A DNA stretch of 42,280 bases, taken from NCBI GenBank assembly GCA_900088475.1, contig FLMG01003322.1:1-42280 (forward strand), given 5' to 3'. The translations under genes and the position numbers were made by a program. Origin of the DNA: Hyphochytrium catenoides (Eukaryota > Sar > Hyphochytriomycetes > Hyphochytriales > Hyphochytriaceae). Shown one piece after another: positions 3,001-41,494 of this stretch (within the stretch, counting starts at the first letter, position 1; each line of letters opens with the position of its first letter). The notes beneath the pieces were generated by a model, which saw nothing but the letters and a program-made list of their open reading frames with translations, searched no databases and was not told the DNA's origin.

Positions 3001-3372
3001 AAGGAGGGCACGGGGAAGCGGGTACCTGCCCCCCGCGTCCAATGCCTTCTCCCACAGAGGAGCGAACTGCTCTGCACAGCGATAGATGTCATGGTCGGCA
3101 GGCACCGCCCAGATATCTTCAGCAGTCAGTGGTCTTTGTGAGCCCAAATGAAGCAGCGAGTTCAGCCACCAGATGGTGGCTCTTGATATTAAGGTAGCTC
3201 GATCGTATGGATTCTTCTCCGTCGGCGGAGGATGCCGACTTGTGCGCTTCATCTCATCGGTCTCTGGGAGTGCAGATCCACCAGGGCTCAGCACATGGAC
3301 GAACGGAGCCTCATCACCCTTGCCTCCTTCACCTTTACTAGGCGAGGGCAAATGCACCGGAGATGCGGGCAT
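1..3372 (-). CDS. ABCC/MRP-type ABC transporter (C-terminus beyond left edge)
   Basis: An ATP-driven exporter of the ABCC subfamily, expected in a plasma or vacuolar membrane and moving conjugated organic anions or similar substrates. One uninterrupted frame of 1124 codons starts at the ATG at 3372-3370 and is still open at base 1. Order: about 90 hydrophilic residues; a first six-helix membrane domain (about 2950-2150); NBD1 with Walker A GPVGSGKSSLL (about 1740-1775), signature LSGGQKARVSLARA (about 1460-1500) and Walker B ILVMDDPLSAVDA (about 1400-1435); an acidic/basic linker; then a second membrane domain. The frame ends in the IKVEN segment just before NBD2, which lies outside the window. 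There is no TMD0, so it is a short ABCC. The residue after the Walker B aspartate is Asp, not the catalytic Glu, as is typical of the degenerate NBD1 site of MRP proteins. No intron is seen. Confidence 0.95.
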   Translation of the reverse strand, partial: MPASPVHLPSPSKGEGGKGDEAPFVHVLSPGGSALPETDEMKRTSRHPPPTEKNPYDRATLISRATIWWLNSLLHLGSQRPLTAEDIWAVPADHDIYRCAEQFAPLWEKALDAGGRYPLPRALLRLILSWFIASGVSLGVYVALEMLTPYLVEALVGYITEEPTDPLGVGSGYYYAAFLGAVSLLSVTVMSIHSNLAIKVGLNVRNACMDTVFRKALVLSASAKQGSTTGEIVTLMSVDAERLFQAFMSFHWIWAAPVMLTIGMGLLVNYIGVAAFAGVGVMFFFLVIQAYVAKLIGKARERTVIHTQDRVKLITDCLQGVRVLKFNAWEKPMEEKVENSRKKEIHFYKKLGYTKAFNQVLMLLSPVMVLGSTFAVYAAAGNELTVTKVFTTMAFINLVRLPLNLLPHTLASIMEAKVASDRLQKFFLLEEIDPHNEEESKDGRRADVGAINVVGASFSWTHPKATSGQEGSGQEKKKNRKDEQDEKHTEKELVGMTRVTIEAHGEEGEREESSIRPVLSEVNLHIRPKTLVGIVGPVGSGKSSLLSAVLGQMHQLSGSRLLKGKVAYAAQQPWIQHKSLRDNILFESSYNRSRYKKVVQVCELSHDLSILPAGDATEIGERGINLSGGQKARVSLARAIYSPDADILVMDDPLSAVDARTAKLILDNAILSFCKDRTRVLVLNSHYHFLKHFDQVVIVENGQVVGQGAPADLASSFPKYFNVADEEEEEEAQGQDGATGGGVEGERKDPLPSEARESQMMTTVTNKRGELMVEEERREGAVEGRVYKEYFAALGSWGFVLAFLVLFGFIATQAVLSFSDWWLSAWGSDEFDRSQTFYIWVYCVLGVGTALFTLFRSFLLIYVTLSISYQIHHTVFAAVIRAPVTTFLDITPLGRIVNRFSRDLDQVDAFLPDLMSMLLVNTIEIIIILLLCCFTSPYILLVIIPMAVAFFFVDKYFRQSSRELKRLESISRSPIYSSFNETLNGLMTIRAYNMEEQFSHKNREAVNVNVKNYFVYWMSSRWLAYRLDLLSALLVLAVAMFAVGFRGSVDPGIAGLALTYSLHLTGMLQWTVRCAIMLENSMTSTERIFEYFKLEKEGAKKEVTVSPPASWPSEGGIKVENLQL

Positions 3373-5452: not shown

Positions 5453-5951
5453 TAGCGTCTTCAATCTCTTGAATTGACTGAGATCTATAAATAAAGCATC
5501 GCTGATGATCCGCTGTAATCTTCGTAATTCCTGCTCCTCGATCTTCGCTTATTAGAGTACTGAAAGATTCTTTCCCCTACGTGTTGTCAAGAGAAGCGAC
5601 TCTTCTACTTTATTATTAGTGGGCACTTCTTCTCTTTCTCTCTTATGTTCTTTCTTCTCTCTCCTCGCTGTCTCTTATTCCTTTCCTCTCGCTTACTTTT
5701 GTTATTCTCCCCTTTTGTTTTGGCATGCTACGACGTGTAGCTTATCTTCCAGGCTCGGTCATTCTTTGGCTAACCCTTGGTAGCTTGCTCTGTGCAGAAG
5801 ATAAATCTTCTATCAACAACTGTCATGTGATGTCGTTGTTCCGTCGCGCTCTCGCACTTGTTCCCCTTTCATGATATCCTTGCCTCCTGCTGTTTGGCTC
5901 TCCCTCTCGTTTTCTCCTGTTTCAATGTCTCCATAACTCCCTCTCTTCCTG

Positions 5952-5985
<34 letters not shown>

Positions 5986-6440
5986 TACACCCTCTCTTCT
6001 AATTATCTAGTTTTTTAAGTCTGTTCCGTCTCGCTTTATTTTTGCTCCTCTCTTGATCTCATTCTCTTCACATCCATCTCCTTGCTCTGTTCTCTCGTCC
6101 GCCCTCTTCTTGTTGTCTTCTTAGGCTATTATCCGGCGTCGCTTTCGTGTTTCTCTCATATATCTTATAGCTATATCTTATAGCTTATAGCTCTATCATT
6201 TGCCCTGTTAGTCTTCTACCGGCAGTTCGATGGAGTTTTGTTCTTCACTCTCTTTACTTCGGTCGTCAACATTGCTCTTGGCATCAGTAGTAGGGTCACG
6301 AGCTCTTCTCCTTCAGCCCCTCTGGTGCATCAGCATTGTCCTGTTATAGTTGTACTCCCTGCTGGTCCTGCTGCTTTCCGTCCTATCTGTGCCTCTTCGC
6401 TCTTCTTTCACTTTCTCTCTTTGATCTCTCCTCCGCCCTC
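5453..6440. other. CT-rich non-coding stretch with a (CT)n microsatellite
   Basis: Apart from the AATAAA near 5490, this ~1 kb is strongly pyrimidine-rich on the + strand, with an uninterrupted CT dinucleotide run near 5957-5986 and a short TATAGCT-type repeat near 6160-6195. I see no gene. Its right end should be the promoter of the small ORF at 6473. Confidence 0.55.
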
Positions 6441-6449
6441 CATATATAA
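6440..6449 (+). promoter_or_regulatory. TATA-box-like element
   Basis: CATATATAAA lies about 25-30 nt upstream of the ATG at 6473. This fits a core promoter with a very short leader for the small ORF. Confidence 0.4.
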
Positions 6450-6472
6450 AACGCCTTCACACGAGAATCTCT

Positions 6473-6718
6473 ATGGCGATTCTTGAAGAAAATGCGCCCC
6501 AGATTCTGAAGCTTATTCCTCTTGAGCAGTTTGACCCTTCGCTTGTTGATTGCCTCGCGGCGGTCGAGCTTGATGGTGATGACATTATTGTGGTTGGTGG
6601 TTCACCTCCTCCTCCTTCTTCTCCCCTTATAATCACTGAGGATATCAATCATGATTCTTCCTTTACTGATGATGAGCGTGGAGGTGATCGAGCAGAGGCC
6701 GAGATCAAGGCGTTATAG
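6473..6718 (+). CDS. Small acidic hypothetical protein (81 aa)
   Basis: The 81-codon frame begins MAILEENAPQILKLIPLEQF and continues into a hydrophobic patch (DDIIVVGG), a proline run and an acidic tail ending AEAEIKAL. There is no signal peptide, membrane helix or recognised domain. The N-terminal third could form amphipathic helices; the rest looks disordered. Support for a real gene is the TATA-like box just upstream, balanced codon use, and an abrupt change to pure polypyrimidine directly after the stop. It could also be the last exon of a longer gene or a chance ORF. Confidence 0.4.
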   Translation: MAILEENAPQILKLIPLEQFDPSLVDCLAAVELDGDDIIVVGGSPPPPSSPLIITEDINHDSSFTDDERGGDRAEAEIKAL

Positions 6719-6992
6719 CTTTTCCTCTCTTCTCTCTTCTTTTTCTTCTCCTCCTTCTTCTTCTCTTCCTTCTTTTCTTCTTCTACCTCTTTTACTTCTT
6801 CTTCCACTTCTTCTCCTCCTTCTCCTTCTCTTCCTTCTTCTTCTCTTCTTCTACCTCTTTTACTTCTTCTTTCTCTTCTTCTTCTTCTCCTTCTTCTTTC
6901 TTCTCCTCCTTCTTTTCTTCTTCTTCCTCTTCTTCGTCTTCTCCTTCTTCTTCTCTCCCTTCTTTTCTTCTTCTTCTTCTTTACTTCTTCTT
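6719..6992 (+). repeat. Polypyrimidine (CTT-rich) tract
   Basis: About 270 nt composed almost only of C and T, rich in CTT and TTC triplets, starting at the stop codon of the small ORF. The apparent frame encoding long S/F/L runs (6651-6998) is an artefact of this tract. Such mirror-rich homopurine/homopyrimidine DNA can form triplex (H-DNA). Confidence 0.9.
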
Positions 6993-7815
6993 AGTTAGAG
7001 AGTCTGATTGATATGTCAAATAAGAAGAAAAAAAAACCTTCTTCTCCAAAACATATAACACAAAAAAAAAGTATATAATGTGCTCTGCGTCAGCTCTTCG
7101 TCCCCGCTTCTGTTTATCATTTCCCATTCTTTTCTTTTTTCTTCTCTCTTTCTTCTCTCGTTTCTCTTCTTCTCACCAGCCGTCGTCGTACGGCTACTCT
7201 TCTACTACTTTCTCGCAGCGACGTTCTCTTAACTTTTGAAGCAAGGCGAGGAAAACTTAGGAAAGAAAGAAGAGGAAAAAAGAAAAGAAAGACGGGGAAG
7301 CAGCAGGAGGAGTCACAGGGAAAAAGAGTGAAGCGGAGGGACCTAGTAGTTCCCTACTATTATCGGAAGAGACGAAGAAGGCAGCGAAGGCCGAATATAA
7401 TGAGTGAACAGGGAAGAAGAGGATGATGAACTAATAATAAGGCCGACTTATAGACGAGCGGGAAGAAGAAAAGGAGATACGGAAAACAAGTTCAACGCCT
7501 ACAAAGCCGGTAACTGATACACAAGATGGGTCTTTAACACTTCAAGAGTAAGCTATGAACTGCATGTTTAAAGACACTTACCATGCCGTCACTGGAGCGG
7601 CAAAGGAATTAGAGATCCAGAGACAGGAGTGCGGAGACACTGCGGAATCTTCATCAGTGCGCGGGGCCGCAGCATCTCCTCCGCAGCCCCCAGCAGTCCC
7701 ACTCCGACTGCTCCCTTGAAGGTTGATTGAACAGGAGAACGAAGGCTGATTGGCCTCATAAGAAGCGAGGAAAGCCTCAGGAGGGGTTTGGCAGGAGTGG
7801 TGGACGGCTGAACGG
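6993..7815. other. Non-coding spacer upstream of the PPR gene
   Basis: This holds a switch from polypyrimidine to polypurine-rich sequence (about 7240-7500), A-rich patches near 7022-7070, and presumably the promoter and leader of the PPR gene. An open - strand frame at 7578-7982 overlaps the PPR start and looks like its shadow. No further gene is supported. Confidence 0.5.
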
Positions 7816-7881: not shown

Positions 7882-9636
7882 ATGTCCTTTAAGATGGCGC
7901 AATCGCTAAAAAGGCTGCTACTTACTGGCGCCCCTGGCTCCCTTCGAAGAGCATGGGGCACGCAGGTTCGTTCGCAAGGCACCTTGGCCCCTTCCGGCTA
8001 CCCGAGAGTCCTCTGGCGTGCTCCTGTCGGAAAGCGTTCCTTGGAGGAGATTTCTTCCTCACGTGAAAAAGAGAACATAATCACGGAAGCAGAGGCCATT
8101 TTGGCTGTTTTTCGTAAGGGCAGACCGAAGCCTAGTGACGAAGACTGTCTCAAAGTGATTAAGAGCTACCTCTATAGAGATATGGCCCAGCACGCGTGGA
8201 GATTTCTTCTAAAGGACATGAGGGAGGCCCAACTCCAGCCCACAGTAGAGCAGTTCAACACCTTGATCAATGGATACTGTGAGCTAAAGCGGCTTGATAA
8301 GGTGAAACACCTAGTCTTCCGATGTATGGCGCAAAAGAAAGTCAAAGCCGACGCACAGACCTGTTCACTCACCATACGCACCTATAGAAGCCGAGGACAA
8401 GCGATGGAAGCGTATAACTTTCTCGTCAACCGCATGGAAAGAGAGCTTGGCGTGAAACCTGAGTTATCCCACTTTATCCAGGTAATAAAAGGCCTGTGCC
8501 ATCAGAGGAATTACCCTAAAGTGATGGAGATTCTCAAGCATGACGTTCCGGCCGCCGGTTTGAAGCTTGACAATCGTCCCCTAGCCGCTGTGGTGGACGC
8601 ACTCAGCCAAACTGGCCGCCTCGAGGAGGCAGAGAGGTTCCTGAAAGAAGAAGTGCCATCCTTTGGAGTAAGCCTCACCGCCCGGGATCATACGCCACTC
8701 ATACGAGCCTATATTGCGCGAGGGGAGCCTCAGAAAGCCGAAAAGCTTCTCTTTGAGTCTCTTCCTTCACAAGGGCACCGGGTTCCGGTGGACGCCGTGG
8801 TGGAGTTACTCAAGGGTTACATAGCAAAGAAGCAATTCTCGGAAGCGGAGAGGCTTGTCCTGCACACTCTTAAGGGAAGAGAGGTCCATGGCCCTCCGAT
8901 AAAGTGCTTCAATGCACTTCTGGAGCTCTACCGTGATGGCAAGCGAGTCACTGATATGGAGCATCTTATCTTTGAGCACCTGCCGTCTGTAGGGTTAGCT
9001 CCTGATCGGCAATCTCTCTCTCTGCTCATTCAAGCATATGTCCTCGTAGACAGAGTAGAAGAAGCCGAGAAGATCCTCCTCGATGAACTTCGCGACCGCC
9101 TCCAACAAGCAGACCACGTAGCTTTCGCCCTCGTACTGGAGGGCTATGCCCGCAGAGGCAACTATGGCAAGGTCTCCCGCCTGCTGAACCACGACATGAA
9201 GATTGCAGGTCTCGAACCCGATCCTGCGGGACTGACTTCACTGTTGAAGGCTTACGTCTTCGCTAAGGACATGGATAAAGCTGAGAAACTTGTCACACAG
9301 ACCTTCCCAAAAGCCAAGATCCGGCCAAGTTTGCGGCAGTTCAATCTCCTGATCCATGGATATATGCAAGAGACTCGCTACGAGGACGCTGAGGACGTCT
9401 TTTCAAAGATTATCCCCAAGTTTGGCTTCCAACCATCGTGGCACAGTGTTGAAGAGCTTTTGCTTGGATATCTTCGAAGTGGAGACGTGCGGAGGGCCCG
9501 CGCGTTCGTTAACAGCACCCTAAGAACGCCTGGGCTGAAGATAAAGGCCCAGTACATCACGCAAGCTGAACAGATTCTTGAAAGGTTGAAGCAGAAGGGG
9601 ATCGTTACGCGTAAAGAGATCTTGGGCGAGCAATGA
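7882..9636 (+). CDS. Pentatricopeptide-repeat (PPR) protein, likely organellar
   Basis: Sequence-specific RNA-binding helical-repeat protein. PPR proteins act in mitochondria or plastids in processing, stability or translation of organelle transcripts. The frame is open from an ATG at 7816, but the ATG at 7882 (MSFKMAQSLKRLLL) gives a basic, hydroxylated, amphipathic N-terminus typical of a mitochondrial presequence and is preferred; the longer start would make a 606-residue protein. About twelve tandem repeats of roughly 36 residues fill residues 110-585, for example FNTLINGYCELKRLDKVKHL, FNALLELYRDGKRVTDMEHL and FNLLIHGYMQETRYEDAEDV. There is no E, DYW or SMR tail, so it is a pure P-type array ending in a basic helix (LERLKQKGIVTRKEILGEQ). 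It is intronless, unlike most genes to its right. Confidence 0.9.
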   Translation: MSFKMAQSLKRLLLTGAPGSLRRAWGTQVRSQGTLAPSGYPRVLWRAPVGKRSLEEISSSREKENIITEAEAILAVFRKGRPKPSDEDCLKVIKSYLYRDMAQHAWRFLLKDMREAQLQPTVEQFNTLINGYCELKRLDKVKHLVFRCMAQKKVKADAQTCSLTIRTYRSRGQAMEAYNFLVNRMERELGVKPELSHFIQVIKGLCHQRNYPKVMEILKHDVPAAGLKLDNRPLAAVVDALSQTGRLEEAERFLKEEVPSFGVSLTARDHTPLIRAYIARGEPQKAEKLLFESLPSQGHRVPVDAVVELLKGYIAKKQFSEAERLVLHTLKGREVHGPPIKCFNALLELYRDGKRVTDMEHLIFEHLPSVGLAPDRQSLSLLIQAYVLVDRVEEAEKILLDELRDRLQQADHVAFALVLEGYARRGNYGKVSRLLNHDMKIAGLEPDPAGLTSLLKAYVFAKDMDKAEKLVTQTFPKAKIRPSLRQFNLLIHGYMQETRYEDAEDVFSKIIPKFGFQPSWHSVEELLLGYLRSGDVRRARAFVNSTLRTPGLKIKAQYITQAEQILERLKQKGIVTRKEILGEQ

Positions 9637-11028: not shown

Positions 11029-11566
11029 ATGGCTAGCAATCAACAGCAAACGACTATCAATGCCAACCTCTTCTCGGAGATGATGAAGAGGTAGGTAAAC
11101 TTTATCATAATGTTATGCAAGACCCTGAGGGGCTTCTCATGGACAATTGCTTCTCAGATACTCCGATACGACACCGAAGAAGGTGCAGCTGATTGACTCC
11201 TTCATTGTCTCGGCCTTGTGTTCGGGAGCAATACAGTTCCTCTATGTTCTATTAGTGGGCACCTTCCCTTTCAACTCCTTTCTCTCTGGCTTCGGTACAG
11301 CAGTCGGGCTCTTCGTGCTCACAGGTGGGCTTATAATCTCCTTCTGGCCTTCGCCGTCTTTCCACACCCCAACTTTTGGATGATACTTTCAAGCTTTGCT
11401 GAACGCATTAGCACTAACTGTCCTTCTCTTTCTTTGCGTAGTGTCGTTAAGAATGCAAGTGGAGTCATCAAAAGAGTTCCGTGGAAGTAGTCCTGAGCGA
11501 GCCTTTGCAGATTATATTTTCTGTGCACTTATTCTTTTCTTAGTAGCAATGAACTTCTTAGGTTAA
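11029..11566 (+). CDS. DAD1: DAD1/OST2, oligosaccharyltransferase subunit
   Basis: Small membrane subunit of the ER oligosaccharyltransferase, which moves the lipid-linked glycan onto Asn-X-Ser/Thr sites of nascent proteins; it stabilises the complex. Exons 11029-11090, 11158-11324 and 11442-11566 join to exactly 118 codons (117 aa plus TAA), close to the family length of about 113. Introns are 67 and 117 nt, GT-AG. Family hallmarks are clear: VQLIDSFIVSALCSGAIQF, the near-invariant LVGTFPFNSFLSGF, then LRMQV, SPERAFADYIF and the C-terminal VAMNFLG. Three hydrophobic helices are visible. The start is the only ATG giving the normal short cytosolic N-terminus (MASNQQQTT). An AATAAA lies about 200 nt after the stop, in the repeat at 11760. 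Confidence 0.97.
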
Positions 11567-12045
11567 CTCTGCCCTGCAAGGATTTGGACGACGGGAAATG
11601 ACCGAAAGACGACCTGCGCAATTTGTCTCCAGGGGAGATGAGATCAGCTTTGGGGACTTAGAAGAACTGCTAGCAACGTGAGCCAAGCAAAATTGACAGA
11701 GCAAAAAGAATAGACATCCCTACTCTCGAGCGTATCCTAGAGCAGGCGCCGCTTTCGTTAATCTATAATAAACACCTCTTATACAGTCTAATAATGCTTC
11801 TTCCTTCTTTAATCTATAAGAAACACTCTTTATACAGTCAGATAACGTTCCTTCCTTGCCGAACGCGGCCCATGGGTAGAGTAGTGCCTCAGGCCAAGAT
11901 CCTCGAAGGTGGGAAGGAAAGATATGATCTTCCAGCTGTTAAAAGAAAAGCAAGGCGCGACGTACATTAGTGAGCCAAGCGAGTTCAGAGGAACTTCAAG
12001 GAAAGAAATCGAGCGCCAAAGAAGCTCTAGCTTTCTAGCTTCCCC
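11567..12045. other. Convergent 3' spacer between DAD1 and the DHHC gene
   Basis: About 480 bp between two facing stop codons. It contains the two-copy repeat at 11760-11860 and an AATAAA on the + strand near 11765. A 63-codon frame at 11909-12100 overlaps the DHHC 3' end and is not supported. Confidence 0.6.
11760..11860 (+). repeat. Two-copy ~51-bp tandem duplication
   Basis: AATCTATAA(T/G)AAACAC begins both copies (about 11760 and 11811). They share CTTATACAGTC or TTTATACAGTC and end in ATAATG/ATAACG followed by CTTCCTTC-type sequence. The first copy carries the AATAAA that may serve as the DAD1 polyadenylation signal; in the second copy it is mutated to AAGAAA. Confidence 0.8.
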
Positions 12046-15580: not shown

Positions 15581-18500
15581 ATGCCGGCTCTTCAACGGAA
15601 GGTTTACGCTTGCGGACAGGTAACGAAAAACCGGATACAATGTGTGGCTTGCTCTGCCCATTTCCTAGCCATGAATTTCCTCTTGAATCGCAGAACACAT
15701 GTGGGGAATTATCTATCACAAGTTGCGATGACAGGATCACGGCGCCCGCACTAATGGAGGCTCAACCTGAACACCCTGTGAGCATTGCAGCCGGGAACGA
15801 GCTATCCATAATAGTCACCGGTAAGACAATTTTAGAACGAGAAGTTGAGATTTCTGTAACTAAAGCACTACTACACGTAGCCGCTTGTGAGGAGTTTGCT
15901 TGTGGGCTGAATGAGCTGTACGTATGAAGATGGTCTTGGGACGAGTCTAATATTCTGCAGTGCAGAACGTTCGTGTCCTTTCTGTGTTATTTATCTCCTA
16001 GAAGCGCTCTACTTAACTCCTTCCTGCAAGTTCCTCGGGTTTTGCTTATAGAGCGCCTGCTGTATCTGTGTCCTTTTGTTATTACCTCTAAATCCCAAAC
16101 CTCGGTGTATACTTTTGATATCTTGCAGTCCCTAAATCTTTTGTCTACCAGCGGTCAATGTGGCAGCAACAAGCCCCAGAATGTTCCATTCTTAGAAAGA
16201 GTTCAAGGTTTGGACGGTGTGGCCGTAGCAAACGTAGGGAGCCTTAACGGCAGCGAGCACCAGCTGATACTTACCAGTACGGACCTTTAGCTTACGTGAC
16301 TCTCAGTCCGTTCAATGGGCTTCTATTTTACCTCTATTGTCCGACTTGGTATTATTCGTAGTAGGTCAATTTCTGTCTTTTACTTCCGCTCACTGATGTC
16401 TCCCTATGTTCTAATTATCGTGCCCTTTATTGACAGCCTTACCGCGAAGGGGGGACCATCCTCTTTTCGCCACGTTCACTCTCTGGCTATCTCTCCTAAG
16501 CCTGCGGCAGGCCTACCGATTGTATTGAGTGTCCATTCTGTAAAGTGGCATCAACTACTTTTTACTCCCACTCTATCTTTTGCTGTTCTTATATCTTAGA
16601 GTTAGGCGAGGTCTTTGTGCTTGGGAACAACTCTGAGGGTCAGCTAGGGTTAGACTTGAAGTCTCCTCTTCCAACTCCAGTCCCTCGAATCTTGTCCTCT
16701 CTTCAGAGAGTGAGAGTGAAAGCAGTCGCGTGCAGCTTCAATCATAGCTTTGCAATCACAGGTTACTCCCGGACTATCTCTTGACACCAACCATGTCTCA
16801 TTCACGTGGCCTTTGTCAGCTGTAATGTGTGACGAACTCCTTTGTTGGCAAGACATCCCTACGTGTCATTTTCTCCGTTACTGTTTGGAGCTCTTCCTGG
16901 CTCCTTGAGTCCTAATCGTTGCAGTTGCCATCTCCTAAATCTTTGCATAACCTCCGTTTGCTCTCCAACCACGCTTTGGAGAATCTAGATCATGGGTCTG
17001 CATTCTCCTGGGGCAGGTAAGCCGGCCTACTTGATCAAGACTTTGGTCATCTACTCTCACATTTCAGTATGTGTAGAAACGACGCGGGACAACTGGGACT
17101 GGGAGATACCTATAGCCGCTGCTCTCCGGAAGAGCTCCCCTCAGTCTCAGACGAGCGCTTTGTATACGTCTCCTGTGGGCTGAATCACACCGCTCTCTGC
17201 ACGGGTACGTCTATTTCTGGATCATTCGGGACGTTTTAGCGCGTCTGTCGTCCCACTTCCGTTTCACTTGCTGTGGTCTCCGCTAGTCACATATAAATTT
17301 GTTCTCTGTGCTCTGGACGGGCCAAGGTCTGCATCAGCGATCCTGTAGTCTTTGTCCTGCGCTTGACCTTGCTCATTGTACCTATGGTACTCGGTGTCGT
17401 TATAACTCGAGACCCCGCAGTATATGTGATCATAATTCCATCTTTGGCTCCGCTGATGCTGGGAAATTTGACAGCACTTTCCTGTATATGCTTCCCACGC
17501 TAACTGAAACGCTGGAAGATGCTGGTAGAGTATATGCTTGTGGAAAAAATGACTACGGGCAGCTAGGGCTTGGTAATGTTTGGGACTCTCCAGACCTTCG
17601 CGCAATTCCTCTAAACCTCAGAATAAGAGTCTGGAGGACCGCCTGCGGGTACTCCCACACACTCTTCCTCTCGACCGACGGTGAAGTGCTTGGCTGCGGA
17701 AGTAAGCAGAGCGCCTCCGCTGCTTATTCCTTAAAATCGTTGAGGTTGCCTTCTGGCCCCACGGTATCCATCTTGCCCTTTATCCCTGACTATTATTCAT
17801 CTTTTTTCGTCTGCTGTCTCGTGTTAGTTCCGCACTCTCCCCCTCTCGCAGTGCCATGTGTTGACTTCTTCGTCCATCTCTACCTATCCTCTTTGTAGCA
17901 TATATGACTTACTCAGTAACCACATTGGCTAGGAAATGACTATGGCCAACTTGGATTAGGGCAGAAGCGTCTCTCAATAATCTCGCCAACCGTAAGTCAG
18001 CACCCTAAGGAGGAAGTAAAGGAGGATAGAAGGTCAATCTTGGATTATTGTGAGAGTGTCAGGGGCTAAAACTGCACTGCTTAGGCCATCAGTTACCTTC
18101 AGGGTCGCCGAATTACTCAGCTCTCTTGTGGTAGCTATCACTCCCTACTAGTGGACGAGACAGGCAGAGCCTTCGCTTGTGGTCGGTAGGTGCTGACTGA
18201 AGAGCCCACTTTTCTTCACTACTTTATTTAACAACCCAACCTCCCTATACTGGATGGTTTTCCTGTTTTCCACCTGTAAGAAACAACCACGGCCAACTAG
18301 GCATCGGTTCATTGGTAGACTCGACAATCCCTCAGCCAGTGCTTATGCCATTTAATGAGAGGGTCGCCCAGGTCAAGATCATCTTTCTCTCTCCTACGCG
18401 ATTATGTTTTCTGCCAATGGATTGGCATCAATACCGTCCGTCTTCAATCATGCCTCCAACCCAACGAGAGCTAATTTCTCTGTTTGTAAAGGTTGCGGCA

Positions 18501-19794
18501 GGCTTCTACCATTCGCTTTTCCTTACAGGGCCTCAGATAGCAGCAGACGGAGGAGTTCCTCTCCCTTCTCTCGGATCCGATCTCTCGCGGCTTGTGAATA
18601 ACCCACTCTTGAGTGACATACAATTTCGGGTGGAAGGCGAAACCTTCTATGGCCATCGATGTATTATAACCATGAGGTCCGTCCTTCAAGGTCTCTCCAT
18701 TATGCTACCGTCGGTGGCTTTGACCCTCAGACCCTGCTTCTTTGTATATAACAGTTCTTCAGCCCGTCAGGCGGACGCTCATTGTCTGCCCTTCCTCTCC
18801 AACCTCCGTGTATTATAAGTTAGTAGTATTGCTTGTTTATCTCGATACCACTCCTCTCATCAATCTCTATATCCGTCGTTGGCCCTGACACTCTTAGCCG
18901 CTGGAGTCATTCAAGTACTTCGCAACGTATTCTTTCTAACATTGCCTTCCTTAGATGTGAGATGATGGCCAGAATGCTGCAAAGCCAGATGATGGAGTCC
19001 ACACAAGATACGATAGAGATCAAGGATGTAAAGGTACCTAGACACAGATGCTAGCTCTCCAAAATCCGCAGTTCAATTCTCCCTTCAGCCAAGTTCGATA
19101 CCAGAATGGTTCTATTCGCTGAGTAACCTCACATATACCTGAAGCTCACCTTCGCTGGTCATAGGCTGAAGTCTTCTTGGCTCTGTTGGAGTTTCTATAC
19201 ACAGACGATGTGAAGATGATCAGCTGCGGACAATATGACTATGACCTCGCATTCGATTTGCTAGCAGCCAGTAATAGGTTCTTGCTAGACAATCTGACAC
19301 GGTAGGTTTGAAAAGCTAAAGAGGTGGAGATATTTTTGAGAATCCTCCTCGCTGAACTGGCTTTGGTTCGTTTGTAAGGATATGTGAGACTGCTCTGGAG
19401 CAGCAAATATCAGTGGAGACCGTATCGCGGATACTGCAGGTTAGCTCTTCCCCATTCTGTCTGGGCTTCATAGCTCTCGAATGGCAAGTCAATTAGACCG
19501 GTTAAACAACTCATTCCGTTGTCAATGTCCGTGTAGGGAGCTGAAAGTCGCTTTGCACGTGGGCTAAAGGCAATTTGCATGAACTATGTTCTTGCGCATC
19601 TCCATGAGGTCACCGCAACATCGGTAAGATTCGAATTTGCCTAGAGTCTCTTAGTTTGTTTTTCTTTCCTTGTGACACGTTCCGCTCTGTCCTTACCTTT
19701 CGCTCTTTACTAGTCATTTCTTCTTCTTCCGGAGCAACTAAAAGTGGAGATACACAACGCTGCGTCGAGGCTAGGGATCGACATGAGCACCTAG
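15581..19794 (+). CDS. RCC1-repeat and BTB/POZ domain protein
   Basis: Seven-bladed RCC1 propeller joined to a BTB domain. Such proteins (RCBTB-like) typically recruit CUL3 ubiquitin ligase or act in chromatin or trafficking; the exact role here is unknown. Seventeen exons keep frame exactly (1710 nt, 569 aa): 15581-15619, 15694-15820, 15881-15917, 16152-16276, 16600-16761, 16989-17016, 17077-17204, 17519-17701, 17933-17991, 18085-18185, 18281-18371, 18492-18676, 18955-19033, 19165-19301, 19379-19439, 19537-19623 and 19714-19794. Blade starts include VYACGQ, GEVFVLGNNSEGQLG, SAFSWGRNDAGQLG, VYACGKNDYGQLG and RAFACGRNNHGQLG. The BTB part is LLSDIQFRVEGETFYGHRC, ARMLQSQMMESTQDTIEI and FLALLEFLYTDDVKM, followed by a BACK-like helical tail. 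Clustered AATAAA signals lie at about 19850-19872. Start: the only ATG directly before the first blade. Confidence 0.95.
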
Positions 19795-31991: not shown

Positions 31992-34900
31992 TTACCGTTT
32001 CTCCACTTGTTTCCGTCGTGGGGCCTTTCTATGATTGGCGGTGTTAGAGTGTGCATCGTCAGAATGTCTCTGATCTCTTCTCTTAGTCTTTATGCCCGTT
32101 GTTTTTCTGTGTACCTCCACAGCTTCAGTTCTAGGCACGGAAATTGTAGCCTCTCCTTGCTCAGCTGCAATTGTGGAGGAGGGCTTACCTCTGGGCGATC
32201 CTTCACTGAGTTGGCCACCTTCATCTCCTCTGTCCCTGTTTCTAGCTTTATCTGTTGTTTCGCCCCTCTCCGGACCTTCTATCTCGACTTTGGGCCGCTC
32301 AACCGCCGCTGTTTTCTCTAAGGAATCACCAAGCAGGGCAACGCCAACTTCAACTTTTTCACCTTCTTCTACCTTCGAGCCCACTATCAACTCTGTGGCT
32401 TGACCTTGTCGCTTCTGTATCTCTTTACGTTTTGCTCTGAGATCCGAGGGTTGGAGAGCAGAAGGTTTGTACTCACCAAGACTCGAGTCCTCTAACACCT
32501 TGAGAGACGAGGAAAAGCCTTCTAGCATTTTTTCTGCCTTTTCATTCCCCTGGTAACGCATCAGGATCATTTTTGTCTTCTTGTGTACGTCGTCAAGCAG
32601 TCTCCGGTAGTCGGCTAGCTCAGCACGTTTGATGACCAGAAGCTCCAGCAGATTTTGAGGCTTCAGCTGACTAAGTTCAAAGGGCTGTCTAATGCCGATA
32701 GAAAGCGCTCTAGCTCCAAGAGCTTTAATTCCTTGCTTTAGAACTCTCCATTTCCTCTTTCCAGGTGGCACAGAGGTGGTCACCTCTACATTGTCCACAC
32801 TCCGGGGATTAGTTGGGGAAGAAGATGAGTTTGCAGCCGGAGGGGAAGAAACCGGAGTAACGCAAGAGGCGGAAGAGGTAGGCGGTAGAAGACTAGCTCC
32901 GTCTTCGAAGATCCTCCGGTGAGAAGTTCCCTCCTGCATGGAATCTAGTGCTTCCGTCTTCAGAGTCTTTTCTTCCCCTGGAGAGACCAAAGAACTATTA
33001 GTCGGGGGCTTTCCGTCATCCAGCTGGGGGCTCTCTTCTTCGTGGCTCTGTTCGTCGGCACAGTGGACAGAAGAAGTCTCGTCCAATGTAATAGGATTTT
33101 CAGCTGACGAGGGGATATTTTGCAGTTCTTCATCTGCTCCACTATCTCTATTTTCCTCTTCAATTCGTAGCCGTCTTTGTGAGCCTCTGCCTTTGGCAAG
33201 CTGCAATGGCGTCGACGTCTTTCTGCTGGCACGCTTCACTCTCTTTGGTTGCACTCTGATCTCATTAATCTCAACAATCTTCTTGACAATGTCCGCATGC
33301 TCTTCCTTCTTCCTCTCAACCATCCTCTCCCATTCCTCTCTGTGTCTCTTCTTTTCCTCTTTGAACTGGACGAAGACGGGTATGATCGCTCTTTCAAAGA
33401 TTTTAACAGCTTGACGTACAAGAGCCACCTGCTTGTCCAGCTTCTTCTGCTCCGGGCCATGATTCTGGAGGAGAACCGTGACAATCTTGGAGCTCTCCCT
33501 CTCTACAATTTCCACGTCCTTACGCGAGAGCGCTTTCTCTAGCTGTGTTCCGATCCTGTTGAGTTGGCTAACAATCTCCCCAATGTGCTTGATCTGAGAG
33601 ACAGAGTTGGTTCCCATTCTATAGACTGTCTCCAACTGGTTTAGGTTTTGGGACGTGAGAGATGGAAAGGGAAGAGGCTCATAAGGAGGTATCTCTAACT
33701 CAGGAATAGGTAACGGAGGATCAGGAGGAAGGATGATCCACTCTGCCTCTTCTCTCCTTCTCTCTTCTTCTCGTGCTAGAAGCCATACCGTGGCAGGAGG
33801 AAGACTTTCCTTATCGACCCATTGAATCTCTAAGTCCACAGCCATCTTCTCTCCTCCCTCGCTGACCCCATCACCTTGTAGGGTATAAAGACCACGGACA
33901 ACCCTTCCGTGGTCAAAAGAGAGAAGAGGTAGCAGAATTTTTCCAAGTTCGGCGCTCTGGAGATAGTTGAAATTGTAGAGAGTGAGGGAGAGCTTCTCGT
34001 CCTTATTCTTCTCCCAGGTGCAGGGGAAACCAAAGACTTCATTCCATTCAGGCGAGGACGACTCTTTAGCCACTCTGGTCTTCCAGCTTTCATCTCCCAG
34101 TGTCATCTCTATGAAGGGGCGAAGCTTCTCCTCCTTGGTCCTGACGTTGTTCGCGGAGAAGAGGCGAACAAAGAGACAACTTAAACTTTGCAGTCTCTCC
34201 TTCTCCTCCTGCTCTGCCTGCTGCTGAGACTGAGCAGCCCTTTCTCCTGCCATCCCTGCCGCTCGAGAGCGAAGGAGAGAAACTCCTTTCTTTTTCTTCA
34301 TATCCTGATGTGCCTTTCTCCTAGCGATCCGTCGTCTATACGCCATCTGGATTGTGATCGTCGCTTGTATCTTCCCATAGTCTCCCACCATGACATAGGT
34401 GGGAGGAACAGAGAGAGACTTCTCTCCAGTCTCTTTGCTGATGAAGTGAAATTGAGATGCACTTTCATCATACACTTCGACCCATTTCAGGGGATCAAGG
34501 GAGTGTGCGGAGTCTGCTACTTTCTTGCACTGCTCCACTCGTGCCTTAAGTCCTGGCTTGAGTGACTGGAGAGACAAGAAAATAGACAAAGAGGAGAAAG
34601 GTCGTTAGGGCAAAACATCCGTGAGGAGTACTCAGCAGATTTCACAGGTCCGATATGACTGTGAACACAATCAGTTGAAAGAAGCGAAGTATAAGCTTCT
34701 GCAGGCAGACAAAGGGGCGCATGATTAAAAGATCGCTGCCCACCATGCCAGAACAGACAGATCCGACATCCCGACTATGGAAGCAGTACGAGCGAGAATA
34801 TCAGGAAGTTTGAAGATAGATGGCTGCTCACCTTCATCATATCCAGGGCCCTAGCGGCAGTAACAGCCTCTACATCAGCTGGGGACATCTCCTCATCCTC

Positions 34901-37900
34901 GAAGGACTGAAGCGAAGCCGCAGAGGAAGAGGAAGCAATGGCAGGTGGAGAATGTGCGATTTCATCTGACGCCAGATTGAAGAAGAAGAACTTAGTTTGG
35001 TCGGCAGGATCCTTAAAGCGGACCCAGGGAGAGCAGAAGAGCCCTTCCTCCACGTCCCTTTCAAAAGAGAAAGCTGGAGGAGAGTCCCATTGATACCGCA
35101 GCGCCATCACCTCTTTGTTTGGGATCTGCTGTTTGAAGCACTCTTTCAGCGTCTCTTCCAGTTCCCTCTCCGCTTCTTTCTCTTTCCCGCCCTCTCTCAG
35201 TGCAGTGGCCAGTAGAAGAGCTACCTCATAGGACCAGCCTATGAAGCGCTGGGCTGTGCGGGAGAGCGAGACTGCCAAAGTATAATATCTTTGCGCTAAG
35301 CACTTGCGAATCAATGCTGTCCAGGTGTAGGTGGAAGAGAGTGAAGCTGCGAGTCCTCCTCTTTCTTTCTGAAACAATGTCAGAAGATCTTTGATCTGTC
35401 GATGCCGCATTTCCGTCTCTCCTCTCGTGCCAGGCATGTGCGGTGTCTCTCTCTCTTCTTGCACTAGCTCCAGTTCTATTTCTATAGTACTCTGTTTCAC
35501 GTCCCACTGCCAATTGTCATCAAGGTGCAAGGTTTGGACTCCTCTCCATTTCCTATTTCCATTGAAAGGGAGCTCGCTTGGTGAGAGTTGAAGGCGTCCT
35601 ATAACCTTAGCGTCTCTAGAGAACTCGTCTCTGATGTTGATAGTAAACTTCTCTCCAGCGCTAAGAGCTAGCTGATAGACTTTGCTCCCCTGTCCCCAGA
35701 AGGGATCCTTTGCCGACAGATGGCCACTGGAAGAAGAGAAAAGGCGAGGGCCAGATGCAGGGTAAGATGTAGTCATTGGTGACGAGAACGCCCGGAGAAA
35801 GGGTAAGGCCCTTTGACGCAGAGAGGATTGAATTGCACGAGACAGACCCAACGCTCCATTGCCCAGCGCTGCTGTGCGGAAGCTTTGTCCATGACAGAGC
35901 ACTTCCGCGTATGGAGCAACGTGAAGTCTGTGCAAAGGTACAGGAAGACGGGAGCACCGAATGATGCGAACGTTGAGCCTGTGCGGAGGGGGTTGAGAAG
36001 AAAGAGAATCCTCGTCCTCTCTTTGCTTCGCTTCCTTTTCCTTATTAAGAGCAGGGGGAAGAAGAGCCAAGTAAAAGAGCTCTCGCGCCTTTCGCCTGTA
36101 CTCCTGCACGCGACGTCTAATCACTCTTTCTTCAGCTTCGTCCCACTCCTTCAAGAAGGACTCTGATAGCGAGGGAATCTCCCTTTGCGCCGGTGTCTCT
36201 GTTGACGATGCGCCAGGTCTTGTGGGAGAGCGGGGAAGACTGGAAGACGGGACAGCCTCAGAACAGAGTCCGTTAGTCTCGGTTGGAGCTATCTTGTCTC
36301 CTTCCACAGCCGCTGCTGGTGAAAGAAGAACTGATTTACTTTGATCTACTGATTGCTCCTGTTTAGCGTTTACGATGGGGTCGTTCTGGGCTAGCTTCTC
36401 CTCTTCGGATCCGACCTTTCTCTCTCCATTGGCCATCTTCTCCTTCTTTTTAGAGATCTTCTTCTTCTTTGTTGTGGTAGACTCGACTCTAGCAACTTCT
36501 TCATCTGCTTGCTGTCTCCCTTCCCCGCCCGTCTTCTTCTTCTTCTTCTTTCCTTTCTTCTTTTTAGGTGATGATAAGGCAAGAGGCGGTGGAGGGCCTG
36601 CAGGAGGAAAAGGCTTAGGTGGCGGTCCTTTCGGTGGCAGAGTCCTAACTGGAGTAGGAGCGACGAGGGGCAATGGCTCTGATGAAGGCAGCAACGAAGT
36701 AGAGGCCAGAAGTTGGTCTGCTGATGAGTTGGAGGGAGGTCCTTCCTGCGGATTTGGACTGCTCTCTTCTTGACGTTGAGGCTCTGTCTTCAAAAGGGTC
36801 ATGACTTTGGCGGGCCCTTCTGTCACTATCCGCTCCGCGGTGTCGACCCCCGTTTTAGCTATCAATAGGGAAGGAGAAATGGCGGCCGTTGGGGATTCTT
36901 CCTTCCGTTCAGCTGATGGATTCGCTCTCTTAGTTTCTGGTTTTACACTAAGATCGGGCCCAGTGTTCTCTCCATGTCTCTCCGGAGTCGCAGAAGGTGC
37001 CGAGTTGGTGAGAAGAAGAGCGGCAGGGAGTTGTCTCTCCCTTTGTCGTGCCTCCTGCCTTTTACCTAAGGTATAGGTCAAATGCTCCGCCCAAGCGGAG
37101 TAAATCATCGCCAAAATCTGCAGAACATCTTCAGAAGAAAGCTGTTCTTCTCTCTCGCGCCTATCCTTCCTCTTGTCTGTCCTAATACTGCCCGTCTTTT
37201 CGTCGTCTATCACCTCCCTCAGCAGCTTCCTAGCATATCTAACACACTTGCCATAGTTGTCAAGCTCGAGAGAGTTCTGAATGATCAGAAAGAGAACCGC
37301 TTTTCTCCCTCCCTCTTCCCTCTTCGGCGGCTTCTTCCATCCAGGGAATTCTTTAAGAAGTCTGGCCCCTAACTTGTTGCTCATTACATATTTCTGCGAC
37401 GCATGGTAGCACAGAGCAAGGAGATAGACGGACGAGGGAGAGATCGAGCATGCAGGAAATTGCAGAGAGAGCTCAAGGGCCTCTATAGCGCCCTTAAGGT
37501 TGGCAGGGTCTCCCTCGTCTCTCCATTGATAGAAGTGACTCTTTCCTAAGAGTTGAAAGAAGCTTGAGTCTCCAAAATAGGAGCCTTTTCTCTTCACGAA
37601 CTCGAGGATAGCAGCCATTTTCTTCCAGTCTTTCTTTCTTTTGTCACGTTCTCCACTCTTCTGTCCTCCTTCTCTTGGCCATCTCCCATACTTATAAGCA
37701 CGCGTCAGGAGCCGGTGATAGAAGTGGTTTTTGCGAACTTCTTCATCGAACGGGCTCCCGGCAGAGGCCCAAAACTTCCTCTGAGCCGCAAGGACCGAGA
37801 GAGAAGAAGAGATATTGGGCGACTTCGGGGTAGGAGCTGAAGATGGATCTGATTGAGAAGAGGCCGCCTTTATCGCTTTTTGCAGCCACACAACGGCATC

Positions 37901-39673
37901 GACATTTCGGTTTGTCTCTCTATAACACAAAGCGATCTTCTCATAGTGACCCGCATTGGAACTAGAGAAGGAGAGAGAGGACGAGTGGCTGGCAGAAGAG
38001 AGAAGTGTCGCCTGCTGCAGAAAGTCCCGCGCAAGATAGAAATCATTGTGGGAGAAACATTTTAGTCCAAGCTTTTCCCATAGTACGGGGCTAAGAATCC
38101 ACTCTTGCCAAGAGAGAAAGTACTCTCCCGCTCCATCCCCACTGTCTTCCTTCTCCGCGCGTCTCTTCAGCACCGGGAGGGAGATGTCCAGTCCGAAGGA
38201 GAGAGGGAGACGGCGGAGAAGCTCTAACATGGACGTAGTCCTCAAGTGGGTCCTCTTATATTCATAAAAGCCCTGGGTCGTTCTCTTGAAGTCAACATCG
38301 GCAAAGGAGTCTTCCGTCTTTCTGACGCGTACTATTAGCTGAAGAGAAGCATCATCTACCCGGTTCTCCTCCTTGGAGAAGACAAGGAAAGAACCTACTG
38401 GCTTTCTCTGTAGGTGGGAAGAAGCATGGGAAACTCAATCAGCATGAGAGACATACACAGAGACCGTCGAGAGTTGTGGCTTGAGAAACCCATAAGAGAC
38501 AGACTCATACTTTTAGGGCGAGAATATCTCACGTCTCTCTTTCCATGCCTCTCTCCCTGTCCCTGTTGATTCCTCCTGGACCGCTTTCCTCTCTCTCTCT
38601 CTGTCTTACTATCTCTCTGTTGCTCTATCTTCTCTCGTTCTTTCTCACCTCGATCAAAGCCGCAGCTTGGTCTTCCGAGATCTCTCCAAAATAGGGTCTA
38701 TCAGGTGAGAGAGTCAGAAATGACGAGCAAGACACGTCCCAAAGAATTCTTTCCTCTACTCGTCTCTCTATTTACCCTGGCCCCACCTACACCGAACTCT
38801 CTCTCCGCGGCAATGTACGGTCCGCTCTCCCGAGGCACTACAGAGTGTATTTAACTTTTCCTGATCCGCCCTTTGCTCTCTCTCTCTCTCTCACTCTCTC
38901 TCTCAATCCTGGTCTCTCTTTCGTTCTCTAAAGGTTGGGATCATCATCAGGTTCCACTTCTTGGCCTTGTCATCCTAGGGCGACTCTATTCCCTCTGACA
39001 CCTCACCACCGTGCCTGCGACAGCAGCTTAATGACTGACTTACCCAGTATCTGTATGCAGTTCTCTCTCCAAGTAGAGTTGTTCGTAGATAAGGTTTGCT
39101 TCGTTCATCTTCTCCGTCTCTTCTCCCTTTCCCCACTTCTCAAAGGTGCTTGCAATCATCAGCCGGAAGTCATCTTCAGTGTAAGGAATGGTGGGAGACA
39201 CAGAGCCCGGAGCGATGGAGGATTGAGTCCGAGGAGAGGCGGGAGAAGACGAAGAAGAAGGATAGCAAGCTTCCATAATCTCCCTAAGACCAGCAATAGC
39301 CTCTTGATAACGAGAGAGCTCTCGGAGATAACAAGCACGACGGAAAAGGAGAGCGAGGCGCTCTGAAGTGGCTGCATAACGGTCTATGAACCTTTGGAAA
39401 ACAAAAAGAGGGGAGAGACAGGAAGAAGGAAGACGGTGAGGACGGAAGAGAGAGAGGTGAGAACGGAAGAAGAGAGAGAGAGAGAGATCGGGAGAACCAA
39501 CGGGGAACAAAGAGATCAAGAGCAGAGAGAGAAGGAAAGGAAGAGAGAGAGAGATGAAGAGGGAAAGAGCGGGAGAGGGAAAGAGAGACGGGGGCAGGGG
39601 AGAGGAGAGAGAGAGAGAGAAGAAAATTGAGAGAGAGAGAGAGAGAAAGAGAGAGAGACAGAGAGACAGAGAA

Positions 39674-39706
<33 letters not shown>

Positions 39707-41494
39707 AGAGAGAGAGAGAGAGAAAGAGAGAAAGAGAGAGAAAATATGGTCAAGAATGCCATCGGAAATAAAATATTGGGAGAAACTTCCTATGGCCTTT
39801 TGCCCACTCAGCTTCCTCTTACATCCTGGCCGTTCTTTTCCTGATGGTTGCGCTTACCTGGCAATCATCTTCACGTTCTCCTTCAGTTCGCCATTCTTCT
39901 CTAATAAATATATGCACTTTAGAAACGCATCCTCTCTGCAATTCTCCTCATACTCGAGGCTCTGTTTATAGGCAGAGCAAGCCAAACGTAGAACAGAAAG
40001 CTCTCCGCTAACTTCCCAGGTGCTGTAGAGAGAGAAAGCAAACTTTCCCCAGAGCTCGGGAGAGAACTTGGCTCCTGCCTGGAGAGCAAGAGAGAGGAGA
40101 ACTGCAGCGCGACGATAATCTCCCACTTCGTAGGCAAAGAGAGGAAGAGAGACGTCCTCTCTTCGTTTTTGCTCGTCTGTATAGAGTCTCTTTCTTCGTG
40201 CGATCTCTCGGCCTTTCATCCCTCGGTACACCCGTTGAAGGAGCCTCACTCGCCGGTCAAAAAACCGAACACTCTCTCTCTCTATGGCAAGGCTGGTAAT
40301 TCGAGAGACATAGCGCCGGCTTTCTCTCTCTCTTGCCAATCTCTCTCTCACTTCCCGAGCAATGTACGCACGGAACTGCAGCTGTATGGAGACGCAGGCC
40401 TTATTCCTCTTTCTCTTCCTGTACTCCTTCCTTGCCACATAACACCGAAAGCTCCTTTGAATGGTCTCCGCCGAGCGTTGCTGCCTACGGTTTCTCCCTA
40501 ACTCAAGCGCTCTGACCTTCCTATGGTACCGTCGGAAGAGAGACTGGATCTTCCTGGCACTCGTATCCCTCAAGGAGAGAAGGCTCTCCTTTGTAGAGTG
40601 TATCAGAGGGATAAGCACTCTGTCTATCACTCGAATCGAGAGAGAGTGACAGAACCGTCTCTCTATCCTTCTTTTGGTCCTCTCCCATCGATACCAGCGT
40701 TGAACCCTCTCTACTGCCCTTACTATCAGAAGAAGAGGAATCTCTTGAAGAAACTCTGTTGCCACTTTCTTTCGCCATCTCTCTCTTCGTCTCCTATAGA
40801 GCTTATACCGGATCTGGAGAGAAGAGATTGCCCGCTGTACATTCCTTATCGCTCTTTCCTGAAGAAGCAGAAGAAATTTCTTGCGACTCGCATACTTCCG
40901 CCACAAGCTTTGTATCCGAATAGCTGCTTGGACCTTCTGGTGCTCTCGTGCAAGAACACTATCTTCACTGTTGGTTCCTTTCTCTCTCTTGTTCTTCCAT
41001 CTGTCTTTACTCCTTCCCACCACATCGCCAGTGTAGAGTGAAGCTGTGTAAACAGAGGCGAGGCTAGAGAGAGAAAATTCTCCGTTGGGATAGAGTCTGT
41101 TCTTTCCTTCTCTTCCGATAGGCTTTCTTCCATCAGGAGAAGGGGATGAAAGGGCGGGAGAGAGTGAAGAAGAAGGGAGAGGTGGTCGTACAACCTGGCT
41201 CGGTCGGGATACAATGAGCTTCACATGCTCTACTTTCGAGGAAGAGAAAGAAGGAGAGACCGAGAGGGGAGAAGAATGAGAGGATGTAGGGACATCCTGC
41301 CTGACCTTCACCACGGGAGACTTCAAGGGAACCATAGCGGGAGATGGAGACTGCCTCTGTTCGCTATCTAGAGAAGGAAGAAGGATCAGAGGATTATCTC
41401 TATCTCCTTGGTTGGTAGAAAGAGAAAGAGGAGGATTAGAGCCGACCACAGGACGTTTGACTCTATTTTGACTCGAGTCGGTCGGTCTTAACAT
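31992..41494 (-). CDS. Giant IQ-TPR-SH2-TPR-C2-WW-IQ-C2 scaffold protein
   Basis: Predicted cytosolic/membrane-associated signalling scaffold of about 2,700 aa. Exons: 41494-39858, 39391-39044, at least one unresolved exon in 38700-39040, 38697-38649, 38407-34832 and 34565-31992. The resolved junctions keep phase. Domains in order: Ser-rich start; about seven IQ motifs (40940-40190, e.g. AIRIQSLWRKYASRKKF, AETIQRSFRCYVARKEYRKR); TPR-like helices continuing across the intron at 39392-39857 (ERLALLFRRACYLRELSRYQ); an SH2-like domain split at 38649/38407; TPR-like helices (about 38150-37100); a Lys/Pro-rich disordered region; a C2 domain (about 35990-35455); more helices; a WW-like segment (about 35035-34970). 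The last exon adds a second WW-like segment, an IQ motif (IQMAYRRRIARRK), a second C2 (about 34200-33805), a coiled coil (33600-33240) and a charged tail. The start is the first in-frame ATG; the frame is open further upstream, so the N-terminus is uncertain. Confidence 0.85.
38200..38697 (-). other. SH2-like domain split by an intron (38408-38648)
   Basis: Exon 38697-38649 encodes PYFGEISEDQAAALIE, matching the SH2 start (W/Y-hydrophobic-G-x-I-S-x-x-x-A-x-x-L). The next exon begins RKPVGSFLVFSKEEN, the G-x-F-L-V strand. It is followed by SLQLIVRVRK, a DVDFKRTTQGFYEYKRTHLR stretch and SMLELLRRLP, the usual C-terminal helix position. The arginine of FLVR is Phe here. Confidence 0.7.
39392..39857 (-). 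repeat. Intron filled with a GA/CT microsatellite
   Basis: This 466-nt intron of the scaffold gene is nearly all purine on the + strand (GAGAGA runs over about 39460-39750), hence pyrimidine on the transcribed - strand. Splice sites are clear: GTAAGC at its 5' end and TTTTCCAAAG at its 3' end, joining KMIA-R to FIDRYAATSE in phase. The 240-codon open frame over it is low-complexity artefact apart from its last ~115 codons, which are exon. Confidence 0.85.

Follow-up and report, generated by a model that had tools for sequence, protein, structure and literature searches.

The minus strand of a 42,280-nucleotide (nt) stretch of Hyphochytrium catenoides DNA (contig FLMG01003322.1; hereafter the window) carries a predicted gene for a protein of 2727 amino acids (aa) in which an IQ array, TPR-like blocks, an SH2-like fold and two C2 or C2-like domains share one reading frame. 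We propose that the product is one large adaptor, or scaffold, of this ciliated, apparently non-photosynthetic protist, regulated by calmodulin-like light chains, a reading to which we give slightly better than even chances. A scaffold is the most economical reading, since Pfam named no catalytic domain in the segments scanned. The protein may further represent an undescribed class of giant protist scaffolds, in which a phosphotyrosine-blind SH2-like fold is part of a TPR solenoid, flanked on one side by a Ca2+-sensing arm of seven IQ motifs and on the other by two C2 folds independent of Ca2+, and in which SH2 would act as a plain protein-docking part outside tyrosine-kinase pathways; this proposal is tentative, and we rate its chances as clearly short of even.

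A predicted single five-exon gene

The four introns of the predicted gene are all GT-AG (466, 346, 241 and 266 nt) and join long open frames into one minus-strand frame whose sole stop is terminal. The exon ends agree with those of an initial annotation, made by a model from the letters and their open reading frames, which had described a single frame over ~9.5 kb with few introns. Codon scores, for which an ABC-transporter gene frame and a PPR-protein gene frame elsewhere in the window served as training set, were positive for the called frame and for no other of the six in all five exons. Among the 12 same-strand intron frames one scored slightly positive (0.035), and, of 27 stretches of 100 codons taken from the gene, four scored slightly negative. 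At the level of the frame, splice joins and codon scores agree with the initial description, and one five-exon gene on the minus strand is a plausible prediction. Intron 1 contains a long CT-rich tract (window 39452-39760), and similar CT-rich stretches lie at ~5600-7000.

An SH2-like fold completed by a microexon

Joining exon 2 directly to exon 4 shifts the frame, and the phase is restored by the 49-nt exon 3, which encodes PYFGEISEDQAAALIE. The intron between exons 2 and 4 holds 54 frame-keeping candidates of 10-200 nt, three of which combine a GTRAG donor with a YAG acceptor; among these three, only the 49-nt exon has a positive codon score (4.99 vs -1.90 and -0.78). With this microexon in place, SH2 is the top Pfam match of aa 663-755 (expectation value, E, 0.011; 16.2 bits; model positions 2-67 of 77), followed by DUF7063 (E 0.056). 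Pfam listed SH2 for none of four controls (microexon removed, either alternative microexon, reversed sequence), with the limit that HMMER filters conceal the majority of matches weaker than about E 0.1 and that weak control matches could escape listing. A longer piece around the segment matched Pfam SH2 at E 0.029, and a search of Protein Data Bank (PDB) sequences with the segment gave SOCS4, an SH2 protein, as its sole match (E 1.7).

Alignment to the Src and Grb2 SH2 sequences places Phe688 at betaB5, the position of the FLVR arginine, and Glu670 at alphaA2. According to PMC7530234, the FLVR arginine is missing from 3 of the 120+ human SH2 domains, which have His or Trp instead, its mutation lowers affinity ~1000-fold, and SH2 domains of the JAK family bind proteins without phosphotyrosine. 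With Phe in place of the FLVR arginine and Glu at alphaA2, this fold is unlikely to read phosphotyrosine. The SH2-like fold of the initial annotation is kept in altered form: SH2 heads the Pfam matches, below cut-off, once the microexon is included, and the two residues contradict phosphotyrosine recognition. We consider the fold to be probably SH2-derived, and do not class it as a phosphotyrosine-binding SH2.

Another contig of the same genome (C678) carries two SH2 domains ~1 kb apart on opposite strands (L010 1462-1797, plus strand, and 2455-3156, minus strand). Both score above the Pfam cut-off with an FLVR-like Arg (FLVRFS and FLLRFS), and their flanks look STAT-linker-like by eye.

IQ array and C2 domains

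Seven full IQ motifs occur in aa 171-450, against a mean of 0.25 and a maximum of 3 in shuffled sequences (0 of 5000 shuffles reach seven), and a looser IQ core pattern occurs eight times vs 1.82 expected (3 of 5000 shuffles). Pfam IQ matches the array at E 6.4e-8 with 32.2 bits, exceeding its cut-off of 20.3. The array, which had been annotated as about seven motifs, is genuine by these tests and putatively calmodulin-binding.

C2 domain 2 matches Pfam C2 at E 4.6e-13 (49.7 bits, exceeding the cut-off of 22). At E <= 0.01 it also matches 28 distinct sequences in the PDB, almost all of them C2 proteins and one a designed protein; judged by sequence, its assignment is certain. Ca2+-binding C2 domains coordinate the ion through Asp residues of loops 1 and 3. 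In the present domain, LRPFIEM and LYNFNY align with VDPFVEV and IYDWDR of myoferlin, which places Arg, Asn and Asn at the Asp positions of the aligned Ca2+-type C2 domains (VDP to LRP, YDWD to YNFN). Because the usual Asp ligands are absent, it is the IQ motifs that carry the case for a Ca2+ link. From the Ca2+-linked membrane scaffold suggested initially we thus retain the scaffold, given that no catalytic domain was named, and a Ca2+ link through IQ only, not through the second C2.

For C2-like domain 1, a single-sequence model of low confidence (mean predicted local distance difference test, pLDDT, 49.8) contains eight strands. The first twelve rows of its fold matches are C2-containing structures, identified by title except for the cPLA2 and RasGAP rows, which we take to be C2-containing; the best match has E 6.2e-3, none reaches E <= 0.001, and CEP120 C2 domains appear at ranks 18-21 and lower. 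An antibody chain, the sole PDB sequence match (E 0.35), was set aside. Two C2 domains had been annotated, and while the second lies above the Pfam cut-off, the modelled first remains a weak assignment.

Helical and WW-like segments

The annotated helical repeats correspond to three TPR-like blocks matched by Pfam below threshold (Table 1); block 1 matches ARM_TT21 (E 0.0041; 17.5 bits, cut-off 27) and TPR_2 (E 0.32). A simple script detected hydrophobic heptad-like periodicity at ~aa 2172-2225 and 2522-2565, without a significance test, and to this extent the annotated coiled coil was seen again. The two annotated WW-like segments were not recovered: Pfam WW matched neither at E <= 10, and segment 1 matched no family at all at this threshold. 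DUF6906 and Kelch_1 matches on a WW-like segment were below threshold and set aside, as was HEPN_Swt1 (E 0.006; 17.3 bits vs a cut-off of 27.5), and an NCBIfam recombinase match (E 0.003; 16.3 bits vs a cut-off of 900) was not considered meaningful.

Table 1 Predicted gene and its features, in window positions, all on the minus strand
Feature	Position	Residues (aa)	Basis and remarks
Whole predicted gene	31992..41494	2727 + stop	5 exons; joins, frame, single terminal stop, codon scores
Exon 1	39858..41494		ATG at 41494; Ser/Pro-rich at the N-terminus, then IQ array and start of the TPR-like block
Exon 2	39044..39391		Splice joins and codon score
Exon 3, microexon (49 nt)	38649..38697		First part of SH2-like fold
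Exon 4	34832..38407		Splice joins and codon score
Exon 5	31992..34565		Stop included; splice joins and codon score
IQ array, seven full motifs	40190..40933	194, 226, 264, 316, 345, 370, 419	Pfam and shuffle test
TPR-like block 1	39253..40147	450-592	Spans exon 1/exon 2 junction; ARM_TT21, TPR_2
Remainder of SH2-like fold	38192..38407	679-750	FLVF replaces FLVR; Phe688 at 38378-38380
TPR-like block 2	37838..38128	772-868	TPR_2 in two stretches (E 2.4e-4; 21.4 bits)
C2-like domain 1	35438..35989	1485-1668	Long insert ~aa 1526-1582; weak Pfam, low-confidence model
TPR-like block 3, weak	35129..35392	1684-1771	TPR_19 E 0.095
WW-like segment 1	34937..35035	1803-1835	By eye only
WW-like segment 2	34392..34499	1893-1928	By eye only; upstream of first Met of exon-5 frame
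Eighth IQ motif	34302..34358	1940-1958	Motif at aa 1942; Pfam IQ E 0.22, below cut-off
C2 domain 2	33810..34181	1999-2122	Usual Asp ligands absent
Coiled-coil-like helical region	33246..33644	2178-2310	Simple heptad script

Proposed mechanism and evidence against it

We hypothesise that calmodulin or centrin-like light chains occupy the N-terminal IQ helix, and that this helix is the sole evident Ca2+-sensitive part. Client proteins would be held by a solenoid made up of the TPR-like blocks, and the SH2-like fold, placed between two of these blocks, could bind proteins independently of phosphotyrosine or have a structural role. The two C2 folds may dock proteins (or lipid head groups) without the need for Ca2+, and the C-terminal coil may mediate oligomerisation. 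Entry of Ca2+ would then alter the occupancy of the light chains and stiffen or release the IQ arm, thereby changing the set of clients held together. The function of the scaffold is in this sense inferred from its parts.

Several results weigh against this proposal. The SH2-like segment, at 16.2 bits, does not reach the Pfam SH2 cut-off of 21 bits; a single-sequence model, built from the exon-4 part and so lacking the 16 residues that open the fold, is of poor quality (mean pLDDT 44.6), with no SH2 structure named in the 50 fold matches shown of 203; and an exon-by-exon search of the genome for SH2 listed the two other SH2 domains only, not this locus. C2-like domain 1 matches Pfam C2 over 36 residues at E 0.18 and 12.5 bits, short of the cut-off of 22, and no TPR-like block reaches its cut-off (best TPR_2, 21.4 bits vs 27). 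None of the 22 matches listed in a genome-wide IQ search lies on this contig, which makes single motifs weak and leaves the array as the significant feature. Finally, conservation of the gene's features is without support, since no homologue was found among the candidates scored (see below).

Alternative explanations

The initial annotation envisaged C2 domains that bind lipid and Ca2+ and an SH2 that binds phosphotyrosine. C2 and IQ domains are indeed present, C2-like domain 1 retains, by eye, Asp in the loop-3-like stretch IRDEFSRD (aa 1603 on), and the SH2 domains on contig C678 keep an FLVR-like Arg. However, the losses at betaB5 and alphaA2 of the SH2-like fold and the Arg/Asn/Asn of C2 domain 2 weaken this phosphotyrosine-reading membrane scaffold, nor was any sign of a transmembrane segment or lipid anchor seen, though none was looked for; we hold this version to be decidedly improbable. 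Unlikely, though to a lesser degree, is a structural scaffold of the basal body or axoneme, with a centrin-loaded IQ array, protein-binding C2 domains as in CEP120, and TPR blocks and coils for assembly. TTC21 is linked to intraflagellar transport, and TPR-like block 1 scores best, below threshold, against the ARM model of TTC21. In favour of this version, axonemal radial-spoke genes are present in the organism and CEP120 provides a precedent for C2 domains that lack Ca2+ ligands (PMC5990496); CEP120 C2 domains also figure among the fold matches of C2-like domain 1. Those fold matches are nevertheless generic, with non-centriolar C2 domains ranking above CEP120, and the ARM_TT21 match amounts to a generic helical-repeat score.

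Two further explanations concern the integrity of the protein itself. The locus could comprise two adjacent genes, one of exons 1-4 and one of exon 5, mistakenly fused across intron 4, given that the exon 4 frame meets an in-frame stop 57 nt beyond the proposed donor (34775) and that the exon 4/5 join lies outside any domain supported by a hidden Markov model. Yet exon 5 scores as coding ahead of its first Met codon (34565-34392; 0.103 vs -0.165 and -0.435), which argues for the join, phase-0 GT-AG splice sites fit it, and the TPR-like block and the SH2-like fold enclose the remaining three joins between them; we give a two-gene locus a slim chance, the slimmest of those weighed here. Alternatively, the protein might be an ordinary one of IQ-TPR-C2 type whose SH2-like segment resembles SH2 by chance, as suggested by the segment's score under the cut-off, by the poor model and lack of SH2 among the fold matches shown, and by the nearly equal score of the uncharacterised family DUF7063 over the same stretch. 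Against this, E 0.011 over 24736 families corresponds to ~4e-7 for one family named beforehand, the match spans most of the SH2 model (positions as above), and it requires exactly the microexon picked by splice consensus and codon score, none of the four controls having matched within the limit of the HMMER filters; we regard chance resemblance as about as improbable as the membrane scaffold.

Comparison with known proteins

Myosin lever arms and ASPM are IQ-array proteins which, like this protein, carry clustered IQ motifs along a basic, helical stretch, whereas Pfam named no motor or CH domain in the scanned segments here. IQGAP combines CH, coiled-coil, WW, IQ and GAP-related domains; the likeness lies in IQ motifs and WW-like segments within one scaffold (WW without Pfam support here), the difference in CH and RasGAP, neither of which Pfam found in the scanned segments of this protein. 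KIBRA/WWC proteins carry two WW domains, a coiled coil and a C2, and the C-terminal third of our protein similarly orders two WW-like segments, a helical stretch and a C2, although WW fails the Pfam test here and the IQ, TPR and SH2-like parts are extra. The SH2-like fold lies between TPR-like blocks, whereas the SH2 domains of TYK2, RIN2 and SH2D5 are found in FERM-kinase or VPS9-type proteins. CEP120 is not known to carry an IQ array, TPR or SH2, and differs in this from our protein with its IQ array, TPR-like and SH2-like parts. It has three C2 domains and a coiled coil, and, according to PMC5990496, its C2 domains are without Ca2+-coordinating residues and probably bind proteins; C2 domain 2 here likewise lacks the usual Asp ligands. 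In the FLVR-less SH2 domains of TYK2, RIN2 and SH2D5, the betaB5 Arg is replaced by His or Trp according to PMC7530234, and here by Phe.

Relatives and genomic context

Searches for homologues returned none at E <= 0.001 for aa 640-1140 (7969 candidates scored) or aa 1690-2310 (7979 candidates), and none at E <= 10 for residues 20-440 of exon 5 (7988 candidates). Searches of this depth, about 8000 candidates at most, are easily saturated, and absence of relatives is not shown by them. Within the genome (42.5 Mb, 1105 contigs), two stretches of the protein had no second copy, that is, no paralogue. The literature searched, judged largely by titles and abstract openings, held no described architecture of this kind. 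The parts are of known kinds and their combination appears new within the searched material, in keeping with the unfamiliar architecture noted initially. Light-harvesting proteins had no match in the genome, and axonemal radial-spoke genes are present; together with introns and tubulin, the latter are consistent with the protist origin assigned to the DNA at the outset. Among solved structures, the beta-tubulin comes nearest to 5ubq/6u0h (Tetrahymena), followed by 6u42 (Chlamydomonas) and 7miz (Toxoplasma); a small-subunit rRNA was not found.

Elsewhere in the window, the frame of an ABC transporter (1-3372, minus strand), in which two transmembrane regions accompany a single nucleotide-binding domain, extends past the window start, and a PPR-repeat protein occupies a single open frame (7882-9633, plus strand). 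Intron-split pieces resembling, by eye, a DAD1-type oligosaccharyltransferase subunit lie at ~11029-11570 (plus strand), and RCC1-repeat exons at 17350-18818 (plus strand), where the sequence after the repeats resembles BTB by eye.

Implications

The completion of an SH2-like fold by a microexon shows how easily such domains are overlooked by exon-wise annotation. Multi-domain scaffolds are common; here, both testable phosphate-binding residues (betaB5 and alphaA2) are lost from the SH2-like fold, and a fold of this kind, joined with IQ, TPR and C2 in a protist, would inform how SH2 is used outside tyrosine-kinase signalling.

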